From positions 186,001 through 250,000 of the forward strand of contig MHAZ01000012.1 in the NCBI GenBank assembly GCA_001803165.1: a stretch of DNA of 64,000 bases, read 5' to 3'. Under the pieces are notes generated by a model. That model was not told the DNA's origin, did not search any database, and saw only the letters and a program-made list of their open reading frames with translations. This DNA is from Stygiobacter sp. RIFOXYC2_FULL_38_25. Lineage in GTDB: Bacteria > Bacteroidota > Ignavibacteria > Ignavibacteriales > Melioribacteraceae. Below are positions 32,762 to 38,452 of the stretch, piece by piece. The position numbers were made by a program, and so were the translations under genes. Position 1 is the stretch's first letter. Each line of letters starts with the position of its first letter.

Positions 32762-33610
32762 TCATTTGGATTTGAACACGAGAGCAATCCACTCATCCAA
32801 AGCGGATTTCTTAACAAGTTTAAATCCTTTTGAAGCGTATAAGCCGACAATATCAGTTTCATCTATGTCCAAAAGACCGGAAAGTATTAACCTTCCGGTC
32901 TTTTTTATTTTATCGCGAATCAAATCAACAATATCAATCAAGATATGTTTGTTGATATTGGCTACAACAAGATCAAACTCAGTTTCGCTTGCATCTTTTA
33001 GCTCGCATTGACGAACTTCAATTTTACTTTCCAAGGCATTTGCTTTAACGTTTTCAACACCGTTTAACAAACACCATTCGTCATTATCAATGCAAAGAGC
33101 TTTTGCGGCGCCAAGCATTACAGATGCAATTCCTAAAACTCCGGTGCCGGAGCCAATATCTAAAACCGATTCTCCGCCGACAACATATTTCTCAAGATGT
33201 TGAAGAACAAGTTTTGTTGTTGCGTGTTCTCCTGTTCCAAAAGACATTTTGGGATCAATCTTAATAATAAGCTGATTTGGTTTGGGCGTGTATTCTTTAA
33301 ATGATGGTTTGATTACAATCCTATCAGTTACCTCAACCACACGAACATTTTTCTCGTACTCTTCATTCCAATTCCTTTCTTCAAGGGTTTGTTCTTCCGT
33401 CTGAAATGATTCAATGAAGTTTTCATTTACAAGCTGCTGCAAAATTCCTTCAACATCTTCGCGGCTGGTATTTTTAGATTCACTGATAAAAACTGTGATG
33501 TAATCATCGAACTCGTTTATGCCGTCTATATCAAGCTGCCATAGCATTCCGGTTACCGTTTCTACATCAAACGGAACTGTTGTGATTTTAATTTCTTTGT
33601 AAGTTTTCAT
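32762..33610 (-). CDS. prmA: Ribosomal protein L11 methyltransferase
   Basis: A SAM-dependent enzyme that methylates L11. The C-terminal Rossmann domain has MSFGTGEHATTKLVLQ and VLDIGSGTGVLGIASVMLGA (motif I), CIDNDEWCLLN (motif II) and DLVVANINKHILIDI (the NxxAN-type catalytic stretch). The N-terminal roughly 100-residue domain recognises L11. Length 282 is normal. The start overlaps the dacB-like stop by ATGA. The acidic substrate loop is intact, so it should be active. Confidence 0.93.
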   Translation of the reverse strand: MKTYKEIKITTVPFDVETVTGMLWQLDIDGINEFDDYITVFISESKNTSREDVEGILQQLVNENFIESFQTEEQTLEERNWNEEYEKNVRVVEVTDRIVIKPSFKEYTPKPNQLIIKIDPKMSFGTGEHATTKLVLQHLEKYVVGGESVLDIGSGTGVLGIASVMLGAAKALCIDNDEWCLLNGVENVKANALESKIEVRQCELKDASETEFDLVVANINKHILIDIVDLIRDKIKKTGRLILSGLLDIDETDIVGLYASKGFKLVKKSALDEWIALVFKSK

Positions 33611-35043
33611 AGATCTTCAAATAATATTTCGCAAAGTTTATCTTGAATTTTTCTTGCTTCGGAAGCGCTGCCAACGTAATTCTGTATGAGAATGGAAAAA
33701 GCCAGCCAGTTTTCTTTTTTTGTTTTGATGTAACCGGACAAAGATGCAACGCCGCTTATAGTTCCGGTCTTTGCAAACACATTTCCTTTTGCCGGAGAAT
33801 TTTTATAGCGATTAGACAATGTTCCATCAACTCCGCCAATTGGTAGCGATGCGAGAAAAGCATCAAAAGTAGTTTTGTCTTGGCTATACATAAAAACAAG
33901 AACTTTAGAAAGCAGTTCTGCCGTTGTTAGGTTATAGTATGATAAGCCGGAGCCATCGGTTACTCTATAAATTTTTGGATTTGCACCGCTGAGAGTCATT
34001 AAGCTGTCTATCAATATCTTGCCGTTTCGCGAAGATGCTTTACTTGAAGAAGCTTTCTTCGAAAGAACTCTTAAAAATAATTCCGCATTTAAGTTATCGC
34101 TCACTTTGTTTGTGTAGGTAACAACAGGCTTAATATCTCGTTCGAAAGAGAAAATTTTTGTAGTATTCTGGGGAAGAGTCAAAGTATCAATTTTGCCGAG
34201 AAGAGAAATTCCATTTCTTTCCAAACTTTCTTTTGCGAGAGTTACAAAGTAAAACGCCGGATCAAATACGTTAAACTCCGCAGAGTCTTTCTTGGCTGAT
34301 TGCAAGATATTCCCGCCTACAAAAATTGTATTTCTTCTTCTTAGCCAATCACGGTCAATAACAAAATTCGATTTTCCAGTATCGACAGTAACTGAATGAT
34401 TTTCGATGTTGAAAAAGCTTGTCTGCGGAAAGAGTTTTAATTGAGCAGGCTTGCCAACTTCTCCCGGTTCAAAAAGTACTTTTAGTGTATTCTTATTTAT
34501 AGTTAACGGAGATAAATAGGGAATGTAAGTGGCTGGGTCATCATTCCACATCCAGCCCTCACCCCAAAAGAGTGAATCCATTGAAGAAACATCTCCGTAG
34601 AGATTTCCACTGATCTGTTTGATTCCAAACTTTTTCAATTCGCGAGAGAGAGAATCCAAGTTGGAAGAGGAAAACTCGGGATCAAATCCGCCAACGATAA
34701 AAACATCGCCATTGCAAATTGAATCCTTAATTTCGCCGGTGTGATAGAGTGAAGTTGAAAATTTGTAATCAGTTCCAAGAAAAACCAAAGCTGAAGAAGT
34801 TGTTAGCAGTTTTTGATTTGATGCCGGACGGAAAAGCTTTTTCTCGTTCTGCTGGAAAATGGGTTGCTTGCTTTTCAAATCAATAACTGAAATACCAGCT
34901 TGAGCTGTAGTGAAAAGAGGCGAGACTAGAACGCTGTCAATCCTTTGCTCCACCAATGATTTATTTTGATTGAATGTAGCGCAGCCTTGAAGAGAGATTA
35001 AGACCAAGAATAAGATCATGATCAAGAAGATTTTATTTCTCAT
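33607..35043 (-). CDS. dacB: PBP4-type D-alanyl-D-alanine carboxypeptidase/endopeptidase, lipoprotein
   Basis: A class C penicillin-binding protein that trims or cleaves peptidoglycan peptides. The N-terminus MRNKIFLIMILFLVLISLQG followed by Cys is a lipoprotein signal with lipobox LQGC, so it is anchored to a membrane. The active-site triad motifs are SxxK in RPASNQKLLT, SxN in KVSDNLNAEL and KTG in VFAKTGTISG. A large insert between the first two fits PBP4 (478 residues). I start at the ATG behind GAGGTAATA and not at the TTG five codons upstream. It lies between the TatD-radical SAM fusion and prmA, with coupled ends. Confidence 0.92.
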   Translation of the reverse strand: MRNKIFLIMILFLVLISLQGCATFNQNKSLVEQRIDSVLVSPLFTTAQAGISVIDLKSKQPIFQQNEKKLFRPASNQKLLTTSSALVFLGTDYKFSTSLYHTGEIKDSICNGDVFIVGGFDPEFSSSNLDSLSRELKKFGIKQISGNLYGDVSSMDSLFWGEGWMWNDDPATYIPYLSPLTINKNTLKVLFEPGEVGKPAQLKLFPQTSFFNIENHSVTVDTGKSNFVIDRDWLRRRNTIFVGGNILQSAKKDSAEFNVFDPAFYFVTLAKESLERNGISLLGKIDTLTLPQNTTKIFSFERDIKPVVTYTNKVSDNLNAELFLRVLSKKASSSKASSRNGKILIDSLMTLSGANPKIYRVTDGSGLSYYNLTTAELLSKVLVFMYSQDKTTFDAFLASLPIGGVDGTLSNRYKNSPAKGNVFAKTGTISGVASLSGYIKTKKENWLAFSILIQNYVGSASEARKIQDKLCEILFEDL

Positions 35044-35054
35044 TATTACCTCTA

Positions 35055-36413
35055 TCAAAAGTATTCACGTTCCCTAAAATCCACACCAACTTCTTCTACA
35101 ACAAATTTCTTTGCAGCCTCTTTATCAACTTCGCTTAATCCAACAACCGATAAAACAACGTGAGTAAAGTTTTTTGCTTTCTTGGCAAAGTCCAGCATCT
35201 CACCATGTAAAGATGCATCAACGCGCATTAGCTTAGCGTATTGTCCCGGATCTGTAGAGTTTAAGCTGATGGAAACTGTGTCAATCGTATCTTTTAATTC
35301 CGGAGTGATATCGCGCTTATTAATAAAATTTCCATGACCGTCTGTGTTCATTCTGGTTTTGCCGCCGTTATCTTTAACATACTTTGCAATTTGCTTAACA
35401 ACATCCCAGCGGATTGTTGGCTCGCCATATCCGCAAAAGACAATTTCCTTGAAGCGGGTTGGGTCACCAATTTCTTTATTGTAAACTTCAGCATCAGGCT
35501 CTTGAGATTTTGTCATTTTCAAACTATAACCGTTAATAATTGCTTCACCTTTGCGGTCGCAGAAAATACAATCGGCGTTACAACGATTTGTTACGTTAAT
35601 GTAAAGCGATTGACCAATTTGATAAGTAAAATGTAATTTCGGTTTCATACCAATGCCAAATAGTTTGTGAACATTTGCCGAAGTTGTTCTGCCTACATCT
35701 TCAATAGTTAAGTGATGAACTTCTGCGAATTTTTCCGCAATAAATTTAATTAACGCCGGCTCGTTTCTTTCTCCTCTGTGTGGGACTGGAGTCATAAAAG
35801 GTGAATCGGTTTCGAGCAGTAAATTTTCTATTGCAACACGACTCAAAACTTGCCGTATGCTATCCATCTTCTTAAACGTAACATTGCCGGGAAAAGAAAT
35901 GTAATGATGCATTTCAACAAGCTCGCGCGCGTCTTCAACCGAACCGGCAAAACAGTGAAACTGCGCACGCAGTCCGGAATTTTTGTAAGAACAAATTATG
36001 TTCATCACATCTTCATTTGCGTCGCGGTTGTGAACAATGATCGGAAGTTTGAGTTTAAGGGCAAGATCAATCTGATCTTTGAAAGCGGCAATCTGTTTTT
36101 CTTTGGGGGAGAAATCGTAGAAGTAATCCAAGCCAATTTCGCCAATTGCTACCACTTTGTTTTTCTTAGCAAGTTCTTCGAGTTTTGGAATAGATGAATC
36201 ATTCCAATCCTTTGAATCGTGAGGATGAACTCCAACAGCAGCGTAAATGCAATCATACTTTTCTGCCAGCTCAACCGCTTTAATTGATGTAGCAATATCG
36301 GTTCCGGGAACAATCATGTAATCAACACCGGAATTTTTTGCGCGCTCAATTACCTGATCGAGATCATTTTCAAAATTTGGATAAAACAAATGTGCGTGCG
36401 TATCTATAAACAT
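35055..36413 (-). CDS. TatD-family metallohydrolase fused to a radical SAM domain
   Basis: One reading frame of 452 residues holds two enzymes. Residues about 1-255 are TatD: metal ligands in MFIDTHAHL, Glu in AIGEIGLDYFYDFSPKEKQ, His in LPIIVHNRDA and FHCFAGSVED, Asp in LLETDSPF. From about 268 a radical SAM domain follows: YINVTNRCNADCIFC has the CX3CX2C cluster cysteines, then IVFCGYGEPTIRWD, the MNTDGHGN strand and TVSISLNSTDP. The second half matches what is known as the TatD-associated radical SAM family, usually a separate gene. The linker is short (GIGMKPKLHFTYQIGQ). TatD proteins are 3'-5' nucleases/deacylases; the radical SAM substrate is unknown. Confidence 0.9.
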   Translation of the reverse strand: MFIDTHAHLFYPNFENDLDQVIERAKNSGVDYMIVPGTDIATSIKAVELAEKYDCIYAAVGVHPHDSKDWNDSSIPKLEELAKKNKVVAIGEIGLDYFYDFSPKEKQIAAFKDQIDLALKLKLPIIVHNRDANEDVMNIICSYKNSGLRAQFHCFAGSVEDARELVEMHHYISFPGNVTFKKMDSIRQVLSRVAIENLLLETDSPFMTPVPHRGERNEPALIKFIAEKFAEVHHLTIEDVGRTTSANVHKLFGIGMKPKLHFTYQIGQSLYINVTNRCNADCIFCDRKGEAIINGYSLKMTKSQEPDAEVYNKEIGDPTRFKEIVFCGYGEPTIRWDVVKQIAKYVKDNGGKTRMNTDGHGNFINKRDITPELKDTIDTVSISLNSTDPGQYAKLMRVDASLHGEMLDFAKKAKNFTHVVLSVVGLSEVDKEAAKKFVVEEVGVDFREREYF

Positions 36414-36518: not shown

Positions 36519-37514
36519 TTAAACTATCTCTCCGATAACAATTCCTTTTTCGCCAACAGCAGAAGCCGTTTCCAAAACTTTAGTCACGTCGTTAGCATTA
36601 ACGATAGCTATCAATCCGATTCCAAGATTAAATACGTGGCGCATTTCTTCATCGGCAATCTTACCTGCCTCTTGAATCAGTTTGAAGATTGGCAGAGCAT
36701 CCCACGATTTCCAATCCATTTTGATTTGCAAATCTTTAGGAACGACACGCTTCGTATTGCCGATAATTCCGCCGCCGGTTATATGAGAAAATGCATTTAT
36801 TGTAACTTTCTCTTTTAACTCGGTAATCAATTTCAAATAGGATTTATGAACATTGAGCAATTCTTCACCAAGAGATTGATTGAGCAAATCCGGTTTGTCG
36901 TTCACAGAAAATTTCTCTAACAAAACTTTTCTTGCCAGCGAATAGCCGTTTGTATGGAGTCCGGTGGAGCCAAAACCAATCAGCACATTTCCTTTAGCAA
37001 CATTTTTTCCATCAATAACTTGGTCGCGCTCTACCAGTCCAACTATTGTTCCGGAAATATCATATTCCTCTTCAGAGTAAAGCCCAGGCATTTCAGCAGT
37101 CTCCCCGCCGATTAACGCAACACCGTTTTCTTTGCAAGCGATTGAGAAACCTTTTATAATCTGCTCGGCTTTATCGGGATTTAACTTCCCGAAAGCCATA
37201 TAATCCATAAAGTATTGAGGCACCGCGCCGCAAACTGCAATATCATCAACGCAATGATTTACTAAGTCTTGTCCAATCGTATCATGCTTTTCCATTGCAA
37301 AAGCAATTTTAAGTTTTGTGCCGACACCATCTACGCTTGAAACAAGTACGGGATTTTTCCAAGCGGCTAAATCAACTTGGTAGAATGCACCGAAATGCCC
37401 AATGCCGGAAAGAACATTTTTATTGAAAGTAGATTTAGCGAGCGATTTAATTCTTTCAACGGTTTCTTCACCGGCTTCAATATTTACACCGGCATTTTTA
37501 TAGGAGTTCTCCAC
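36519..37514 (-). CDS. purM: Phosphoribosylformylglycinamidine cyclo-ligase (AIR synthase)
   Basis: Forms the imidazole ring of purines from FGAM with ATP. The sequence has SSVDGVGTKLKIAFAM, NHCVDDIAVCGAVPQYFMDY, GGETAEMPGLYSEEEYDISG, GFGSTGLHTNGYSLARKV and ITGGGIIGN, all PurM signatures, in order. 331 residues is standard. It starts with GTG behind ATGAGG, a case where the start codon is decided by the ribosome binding site and by the family N-terminus. It forms a single-gene unit, separated from its neighbours by repeats and a toxin-antitoxin cassette. Confidence 0.95.
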   Translation of the reverse strand: MENSYKNAGVNIEAGEETVERIKSLAKSTFNKNVLSGIGHFGAFYQVDLAAWKNPVLVSSVDGVGTKLKIAFAMEKHDTIGQDLVNHCVDDIAVCGAVPQYFMDYMAFGKLNPDKAEQIIKGFSIACKENGVALIGGETAEMPGLYSEEEYDISGTIVGLVERDQVIDGKNVAKGNVLIGFGSTGLHTNGYSLARKVLLEKFSVNDKPDLLNQSLGEELLNVHKSYLKLITELKEKVTINAFSHITGGGIIGNTKRVVPKDLQIKMDWKSWDALPIFKLIQEAGKIADEEMRHVFNLGIGLIAIVNANDVTKVLETASAVGEKGIVIGEIV

Positions 37515-37632: not shown

Positions 37633-37854
37633 ATGGAAACTACATATAGATTGAATGCTGACGAACTTGATAATAAGTTTGTTGACAGCCTGAAATCAAT
37701 ATTTAAAAATAAAGAAATTGAAATTGTGGTCTCTGAAATTGATGAAACGGAGTACCTCCTTCGCTCTACTGCAAATAAAGAGCATTTGCTAGATGCCGTT
37801 AATGATGTTGAAAACAATAAAAAAATTATTGTCCCGGAACAAAAACAATTTTAA
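37633..37854 (+). CDS. Probable antitoxin of a YoeB-type pair
   Basis: A 73-residue acidic protein (METTYRLNADELDNKFVDSL, then FKNKEIEIVVSEIDETEYLL) directly upstream of a YoeB-like toxin and overlapping it by one base. It does not look like the usual Phd/YefM antitoxin (no YSEAR-type start). It resembles a small group of Bacteroidota proteins found before RelE/YoeB toxins, in which the C-terminal ANKEHLLDAVNDVENN probably wraps the toxin. GAAGG precedes the ATG. The assignment rests mainly on gene order and size; DNA binding by the N-terminal half is inferred. Confidence 0.7.
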   Translation: METTYRLNADELDNKFVDSLKSIFKNKEIEIVVSEIDETEYLLRSTANKEHLLDAVNDVENNKKIIVPEQKQF

Positions 37855-38111
37855 TGAGGAATGTTGCATTTCACGAACGAGCATTTGAAAATTTTACAAA
37901 TTGGGCAAGTGTAAATAAAAATATCTTCGAGCGATTAGTATATCTAATTAAGGAAACACGAAAAGATCCCTTTACAGGAGTTGGTAAACCGGAATTATTA
38001 AAGCATGAGCTAAAAGGATTCTGGTCAAGAAGAATAAACAGCGAGCATCGCTTAGTTTATAAAGTTACGGAGGAATCAATAATTATTATATCTTGTAAGT
38101 ACCATTATTGA
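37854..38111 (+). CDS. YoeB/RelE-family mRNA interferase toxin
   Basis: An 85-residue RelE-superfamily endoribonuclease that cleaves mRNA in the ribosome. It shows all YoeB landmarks: VAFHERAFENFTNWAS at the start, LIKETRKDPFTGVGKPELLK in the middle, and GFWSRRINSEHRLVYKV holding the catalytic Arg/His-rich strand. The C-terminal CKYHY ends with the family's His-Tyr pair. All catalytic residues appear intact, so it should be active when free of its antitoxin. The pair lies between purM and hrcA, on the opposite strand to purM, as an island in housekeeping genes. Confidence 0.9.
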   Translation: MRNVAFHERAFENFTNWASVNKNIFERLVYLIKETRKDPFTGVGKPELLKHELKGFWSRRINSEHRLVYKVTEESIIIISCKYHY

Positions 38112-38122
38112 TTAAGCTAAAT

Positions 38123-38452
38123 ATGGATAAAAAGTACAATCGCGAATACGCAATAGAAAAAGTAAAAGAGTTTGCCGCTCTATTGAAATTTAATAACATC
38201 AAGGTAGATGCGGTTTATTTGTTCGGTTCATTTACTTCGGATAAAGAAGATTTACAATGGTCAGACATTGATGTTGCCGTCGTATCGGATGATTTTTCGG
38301 AATTTCGTTTTGAAGATAACAAGCGTTTGATACCGCTGGCAATTAAAGTGGAGCGAAGAATTGAAACGCACCCATATACGATTAAAGATTTTGAAAACTC
38401 TCCTTTTGTTCATGATGAAATAAAGAGCAAGGGATTGAGAATGAATATTTAA
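38123..38452 (+). CDS. MNT-type nucleotidyltransferase (MntA-like, without HEPN partner)
   Basis: A minimal nucleotidyltransferase of 109 residues: VDAVYLFGSFTSDKEDLQWS contains the GS motif and SDIDVAVVSDDF the paired Asp residues that bind Mg-NTP. Proteins of this size usually pair with a HEPN toxin (HepT) and silence it by AMPylation. No HEPN-like gene is next to it; it follows the YoeB-type toxin by 11 bases and may be co-transcribed with it. I start at the ATG; an in-frame TTG upstream would overlap the toxin. It could be an orphan antitoxin or may act on the neighbouring pair. Confidence 0.78.
   Translation: MDKKYNREYAIEKVKEFAALLKFNNIKVDAVYLFGSFTSDKEDLQWSDIDVAVVSDDFSEFRFEDNKRLIPLAIKVERRIETHPYTIKDFENSPFVHDEIKSKGLRMNI

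Follow-up and report, generated by a model that had tools for sequence, protein, structure and literature searches.

The locus and its genes

The window analysed is a stretch of 64,000 nucleotides of Stygiobacter sp. RIFOXYC2_FULL_38_25 (contig MHAZ01000012.1, positions 186,001 to 250,000 of the forward strand). It contains a fused TatD-radical SAM gene, a single ORF of 452 amino acids running from ATG to stop on the minus strand (36413-35055). Inspection of the ORF has revealed no stop or frameshift inside this frame. The original prediction placed the gene correctly at 35055-36413 but left the strand unstated. It also described one polypeptide with a TatD part and a CX3CX2C radical SAM part, a description borne out by the uninterrupted ORF and the family profiles. 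The features of the locus are as follows (window coordinates).

35055..36413, minus strand: fused TatD-radical SAM gene, 452 amino acids, stop included at 35055-35057
35655..36410, minus strand: TatD domain, residues 2-253, with a class II HxH metal site, from profile matches, alignment and fold match (residue roles from PMC7201278, class from PMC10085689)
35631..35654, minus strand: short linker between the domains, residues ~254-261, where the split in one relative (L051) falls
35061..35630, minus strand: TIGR04038 radical SAM domain, residues 262-451, with CX3CX2C and C327-G-x-G-E331, from profile, alignments and model
36519..37514, minus strand: AIR synthase (PurM), upstream neighbour
33607..35058, minus strand: S13 D-Ala-D-Ala carboxypeptidase, downstream neighbour, overlapping the end of the fusion gene
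32762..33610, minus strand: PrmA ribosomal protein L11 methyltransferase, next gene downstream

The purM, D-Ala-D-Ala carboxypeptidase and prmA genes around the fusion gene are uninformative. A three-gene module is present on the plus strand at 37633-38452. It is composed of a 73-residue ORF (a possible antitoxin), an overlapping YoeB-like toxin (PF06769, 85 residues) and an MNT-type nucleotidyltransferase (PF01909, 114 residues), which overlaps too. A YoeB-type gene beside a nucleotidyltransferase seems an unusual pair of neighbours.

The TatD half

In profile searches, residues 2-253 match TIGR00010 with an E value of 1.9e-83 and 279.8 bits against a cut-off of 206, and the half matches PF01026 with an E value of 2.8e-84 and 282.9 bits against a cut-off of 27. 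The full-domain score thus lies above the curated cut-off for membership of the TatD family. The active-site residues His6, His8, His63, Glu92, His128, His153, Glu202, and Asp204 of S. aureus TatD have been tested by mutation (PMC7201278). Their equivalents in the fused protein are His6, His8, His63, Glu92, His128, His153, Glu201, and Asp203, all eight of which are invariant in an alignment of 54 fused proteins. The structure of S. aureus TatD (6l25) superposes on the TatD half with an rmsd of 1.1 Å over 254 residues, at 42% identity.

The HxH motif assigns the TatD half to class II, together with YcfH, YjjV, and TATDN3 (PMC10085689). AP endonuclease activity accompanies 3'-5' exonuclease activity in all three E. 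coli paralogues as well as in human TATDN1 and TATDN3 (PMC10085689). Judged by its residues and its family, the TatD half should be active as a nuclease. It shares all eight tested residues with class II nucleases such as S. aureus TatD and E. coli YcfH and, unlike them, bears a C-terminal radical SAM domain. A profile search of the genome to which the window belongs finds the fusion to be its sole TatD.

QatD (NF041926), the TatD nuclease from the anti-phage system Qat, also belongs to the TatD family and gives a weak profile match to the fusion. Membership of the Qat defence system has been rejected, as the score of 83.9 bits is far below the cut-off of 230. The fusion has housekeeping neighbours, and Qat partners were not found in the flanking genes examined at this locus.

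The radical SAM half

Residues 262-451 match TIGR04038 over positions 2-191 of its 192, with an E value of 3.8e-59 and 199.7 bits against a cut-off of 129.7, and the half matches PF04055 with an E value of 2.5e-16. The cluster cysteines C278-x3-C282-x2-C285 are invariant in the 54 fused proteins. A score above the cut-off, CX3CX2C, a partial TIM barrel with matches to the radical SAM fold, and fusion to TatD together identify this half as a TIGR04038 protein. TIGR04038 is the NCBIfam family tatD_link_rSAM ("TatD family nuclease-associated radical SAM protein"), which records the association with TatD in its very name. There is no material difference from this family, the association being covalent here as in many of the other members found. 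From what is known of the family, the radical SAM half is expected to cleave SAM.

A further cysteine, Cys327 (window 35433-35435, minus strand), is invariant in 73 of 73 members of a radical SAM alignment, in which it corresponds to residue 68 of the first sequence. It occurs in FCGYGEP, directly before the G-x-G-E SAM-binding motif, a position in which it is possibly catalytic.

Profile searches also show sequence similarity of the radical SAM half to MoaA, viperin, and peptide maturases, a likeness that does not separate nucleotide from peptide substrates. The resemblance to viperin and prokaryotic viperin (pVip) comprises a fold match with a Z score of about 15 and a weak profile match. 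Identity with viperin has been rejected, since the NF038283 score of 40.2 bits is far below the cut-off of 180; moreover, the domain of ~190 residues is without the C-terminal part of viperin.

Structure models and selection

The AlphaFold2 model of the whole chain, built from the 54-sequence alignment, has a pLDDT of 95.3 and a pTM of 0.87 and shows two domains with confidence. These values are consistent with a defined packing of the two domains. When the whole-chain model was used to search known folds, matches were to the TatD half only; the radical SAM half has therefore been modelled alone (pLDDT 96.2). Its nearest solved fold is that of the PFL-activating enzyme (PFL-AE, 3cb8), with a Z score of 16.5 and an rmsd of 2.6 over 178 residues, followed by NifB, viperin, BlsE, and RlmN; TYW1 is also among the matches. 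NifB and viperin are within about 1.5 Z of PFL-AE.

PFL-AE and the radical SAM half both have CX3CX2C and are 18% identical. The radical SAM half differs from PFL-AE in its shorter C-terminus, in CGYGEP in place of the usual GGEP-type motif, and in that a glycyl radical enzyme does not obligatorily accompany it in the genome. Because the domain ends after ~190 residues, the barrel is predicted to be open, a feature of other minimal radical SAM enzymes with large substrates.

For both halves, pairwise dN/dS does not exceed ~0.1 in any comparison that allowed an estimate of dS. Both are under purifying selection. Once the two closest relatives are set aside, the radical SAM half is more conserved than the TatD half.

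Distribution of the fused form

Nearly all complete relatives have a full-length co-linear homologue, at 55–90% identity, and therefore the fusion is neither an assembly artefact nor a chance event. A pseudo-fusion created by a frameshift or assembly error has been rejected on the strength of the intact ORF, the co-linear homologues, and the purifying selection. Sampled near-complete relatives in the order keep the fused full-length form, except for interrupted copies in three genomes. In one of these (G210) the copy is broken by a stretch of N in the contig, in another (G220) it is split in two, apparently by contig ends, and the third (G209) is described below.

In a sample of 198 genomes from across the phylum, 42 have a TIGR04038 member above the cut-off. 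Frames of at least 453 amino acids, which were counted as fused, are found in 31 of these carriers, and those with loci have been confirmed to hold a TatD match; the other 11 have short standalone genes and belong to one family. When 84,980 species genomes were scanned, the best 80 loci included ones with both domains in a single frame under 12 NCBI phylum labels: Ignavibacteriota, Bacteroidota, Chlorobiota, Nitrospirota, Nitrospinota, Acidobacteriota, Planctomycetota, Calditrichota, Zixibacteriota, Thermodesulfobacteriota, "Deltaproteobacteria" labelled Myxococcota, and Firestonebacteria, a list skewed towards the relatives of the query because it is drawn from the best 80 loci. In Clostridia, the gene is present in 31 of 118 sampled genomes, none of them fused by frame length.

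The fusion in related genomes, which the original prediction proposed to confirm, is thus found in the family of the window, in its order, and in many phyla. It is common and not peculiar to this genome, and the gene in the window adds a further example to a curated family whose fused form is widespread. That the two protein families are associated is likewise upheld, by the name of TIGR04038 and by 22 loci with adjacent genes. The fusion had been taken as strong evidence for a joint function; a functional link is supported, but the special status given to this case is not, as the fusion is common and the curated name already records the association. TIGR04038 was not found by name in the literature searched, and the titles and abstract openings of papers mentioning both TatD and radical SAM contain no description of the fusion.

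Linkage of the two halves

In 52 of the 54 fused proteins, from many phyla, the anchors Phe252 and Tyr264 are separated by 11 or 12 residues. This spacing suggests either that the fusion is old and arose once or that the geometry is tightly constrained. In the 129 loci that have been classified, the halves are fused in 83, adjacent in 22, and unlinked in 24. Without exception, the adjacent loci (two of them from one genome) have tatD upstream on the same strand, so that gene order equals domain order. The halves are separate genes in Clostridia, often in tandem with tatD first, while radical SAM genes without a neighbouring tatD are found in gut Bacteroidota, Acetobacterium, Peptococcaceae, and some Clostridia. 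On the radical SAM tree, the fused or separate label changes 4 times, compared with ~38 times when labels are shuffled.

The unlinked copies of gut Bacteroidota form a supported clade with fused Geobacter proteins (in a quick tree with SH-aLRT support only); the culturable G. argillaceus (L113) is among the Geobacter species that have the fusion. They therefore probably descend from the fused form or its radical SAM part. Eleven such genes in one family (L003-L013, family f20), grouped with fused Geobacter-type sequences, have shifting neighbourhoods, and their lateral transfer without TatD is likely. A comparison of neighbours found no common partner gene beside the unlinked copies, which hence offer no clue to the substrate. 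In two Acetobacterium species (L091 and L106), a standalone TIGR04038 gene is directly followed by a gene for a UPF0489-domain protein, possibly a different partner.

One natural split has been observed in the family of the window. The copy in genome G209 (L051) has one clean TAA at codon 257, in the linker, and both halves are otherwise intact. An ATG is located two codons past the TAA and is preceded by a GGGGA stretch that could serve as a ribosome-binding site. As the genus of the window and the rest of its family are fused, the split is best read as a secondary fission, although the TAA may be a sequencing error in one MAG. According to the original prediction, relatives with an intervening stop or frameshift would refute the fusion by showing the halves to be separate genes; L051 is one such relative, whereas the gene in the window and its genus stay fused. 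The separate genes of Clostridia, the unlinked copies of gut Bacteroidota, and the stop in L051 show that the covalent link is dispensable.

Possible roles of the fused protein

The best explanation, and one that we favour tentatively, is that the two halves have a joint role, working as a bifunctional enzyme on a single substrate of nucleic-acid origin. The protein would be a bifunctional housekeeping enzyme whose N-terminal TatD domain hydrolyses phosphodiesters using two metals, trimming 3'-5' and/or cleaving abasic sites in the manner demonstrated for the TatDs of E. coli and humans. At the C-terminus, the minimal radical SAM domain would cleave SAM at its [4Fe-4S] cluster, and the resulting 5'-deoxyadenosyl radical would then be used on a substrate linked to what TatD does, most likely a nucleic-acid end that is damaged or modified, or the nucleotide released by TatD. 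We infer the nucleic-acid origin of the radical substrate indirectly. The curated family matches of both halves, the spacing of the junction, the gene order, the purifying selection with its stronger conservation of the radical half, the status of the fusion as sole TatD, the invariant residues, the two-domain model, and the frequency of metG as upstream neighbour all count in favour of a joint role, as does the open barrel predicted by the model, similar to that of PFL-AE, which acts on a macromolecule, and of viperin, which acts on a nucleotide. The unlinked copies count against it, as they show that the radical half manages without the link, and so do the profile similarities, which fit peptide as well as nucleotide substrates. 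A TIGR00010 TatD is present in 23 of 23 genomes checked that have the radical SAM gene but, as tatD is near universal, this co-occurrence is weak evidence.

It is also quite possible, if somewhat doubtful, that the substrate of the radical SAM half is an unrelated peptide or small molecule, with fusion and operon serving shared expression or stability only. The unlinked genes without a common partner would fit such an arrangement, as would the natural fission at the linker and the descent of gut Bacteroidota copies, with no TatD attached, from within the fused clade. The maintenance of the junction spacing over many phyla and the agreement of domain order with gene order in the adjacent loci argue against it.

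The original prediction had guessed at nucleic-acid or D-aminoacyl repair. Some TatD homologues deacylate D-aminoacyl-tRNA, and a joint aminoacyl-tRNA quality control, in which a deacylase-like TatD works with a radical enzyme on the amino acid or tRNA, would agree with two observations: of the 37 fused or adjacent loci that were scanned, 16 have metG as the gene immediately upstream (larger ORFs were preferred in choosing neighbours), and the RNA-acting enzymes RlmN and TYW1 are among the fold matches. However, metG-tatD is the ordinary tatD context in bacteria, also without the radical SAM gene, and thus says little about the radical half. The gene in the window is not beside metG, and there is no residue-level support. 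Beyond the metG neighbourhood, nothing in these results favours D-aminoacyl over nucleic-acid chemistry, and this role is improbable.

An activase of a glycyl radical enzyme, for which PFL-AE as top structural match and the minimal domain size speak, is very unlikely: NifB and viperin match almost as closely, PF01228 is absent in 9 and NRDD in 19 of 20 genomes searched (the genome of the window has one PF01228 protein), and six fusion carriers that are at least 98% complete (G201, G043, G207, G128, G136, and G148) are without both families and hence without a cognate enzyme from either.

Implications

The fused architecture is spread over many phyla with both halves conserved, and the fused, split, and solo proteins provide a ready set for asking if both activities have one substrate in common. 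In that case, a radical SAM step would be added to the processing of DNA or RNA ends. The stronger proposal, that this is a widespread single-chain enzyme in which radical SAM chemistry and nucleolytic processing are coupled and directed at one and the same lesion or end of a nucleic acid, is unlikely on present evidence; if true, it would represent a not-yet-described radical-based end-cleaning or repair activity.
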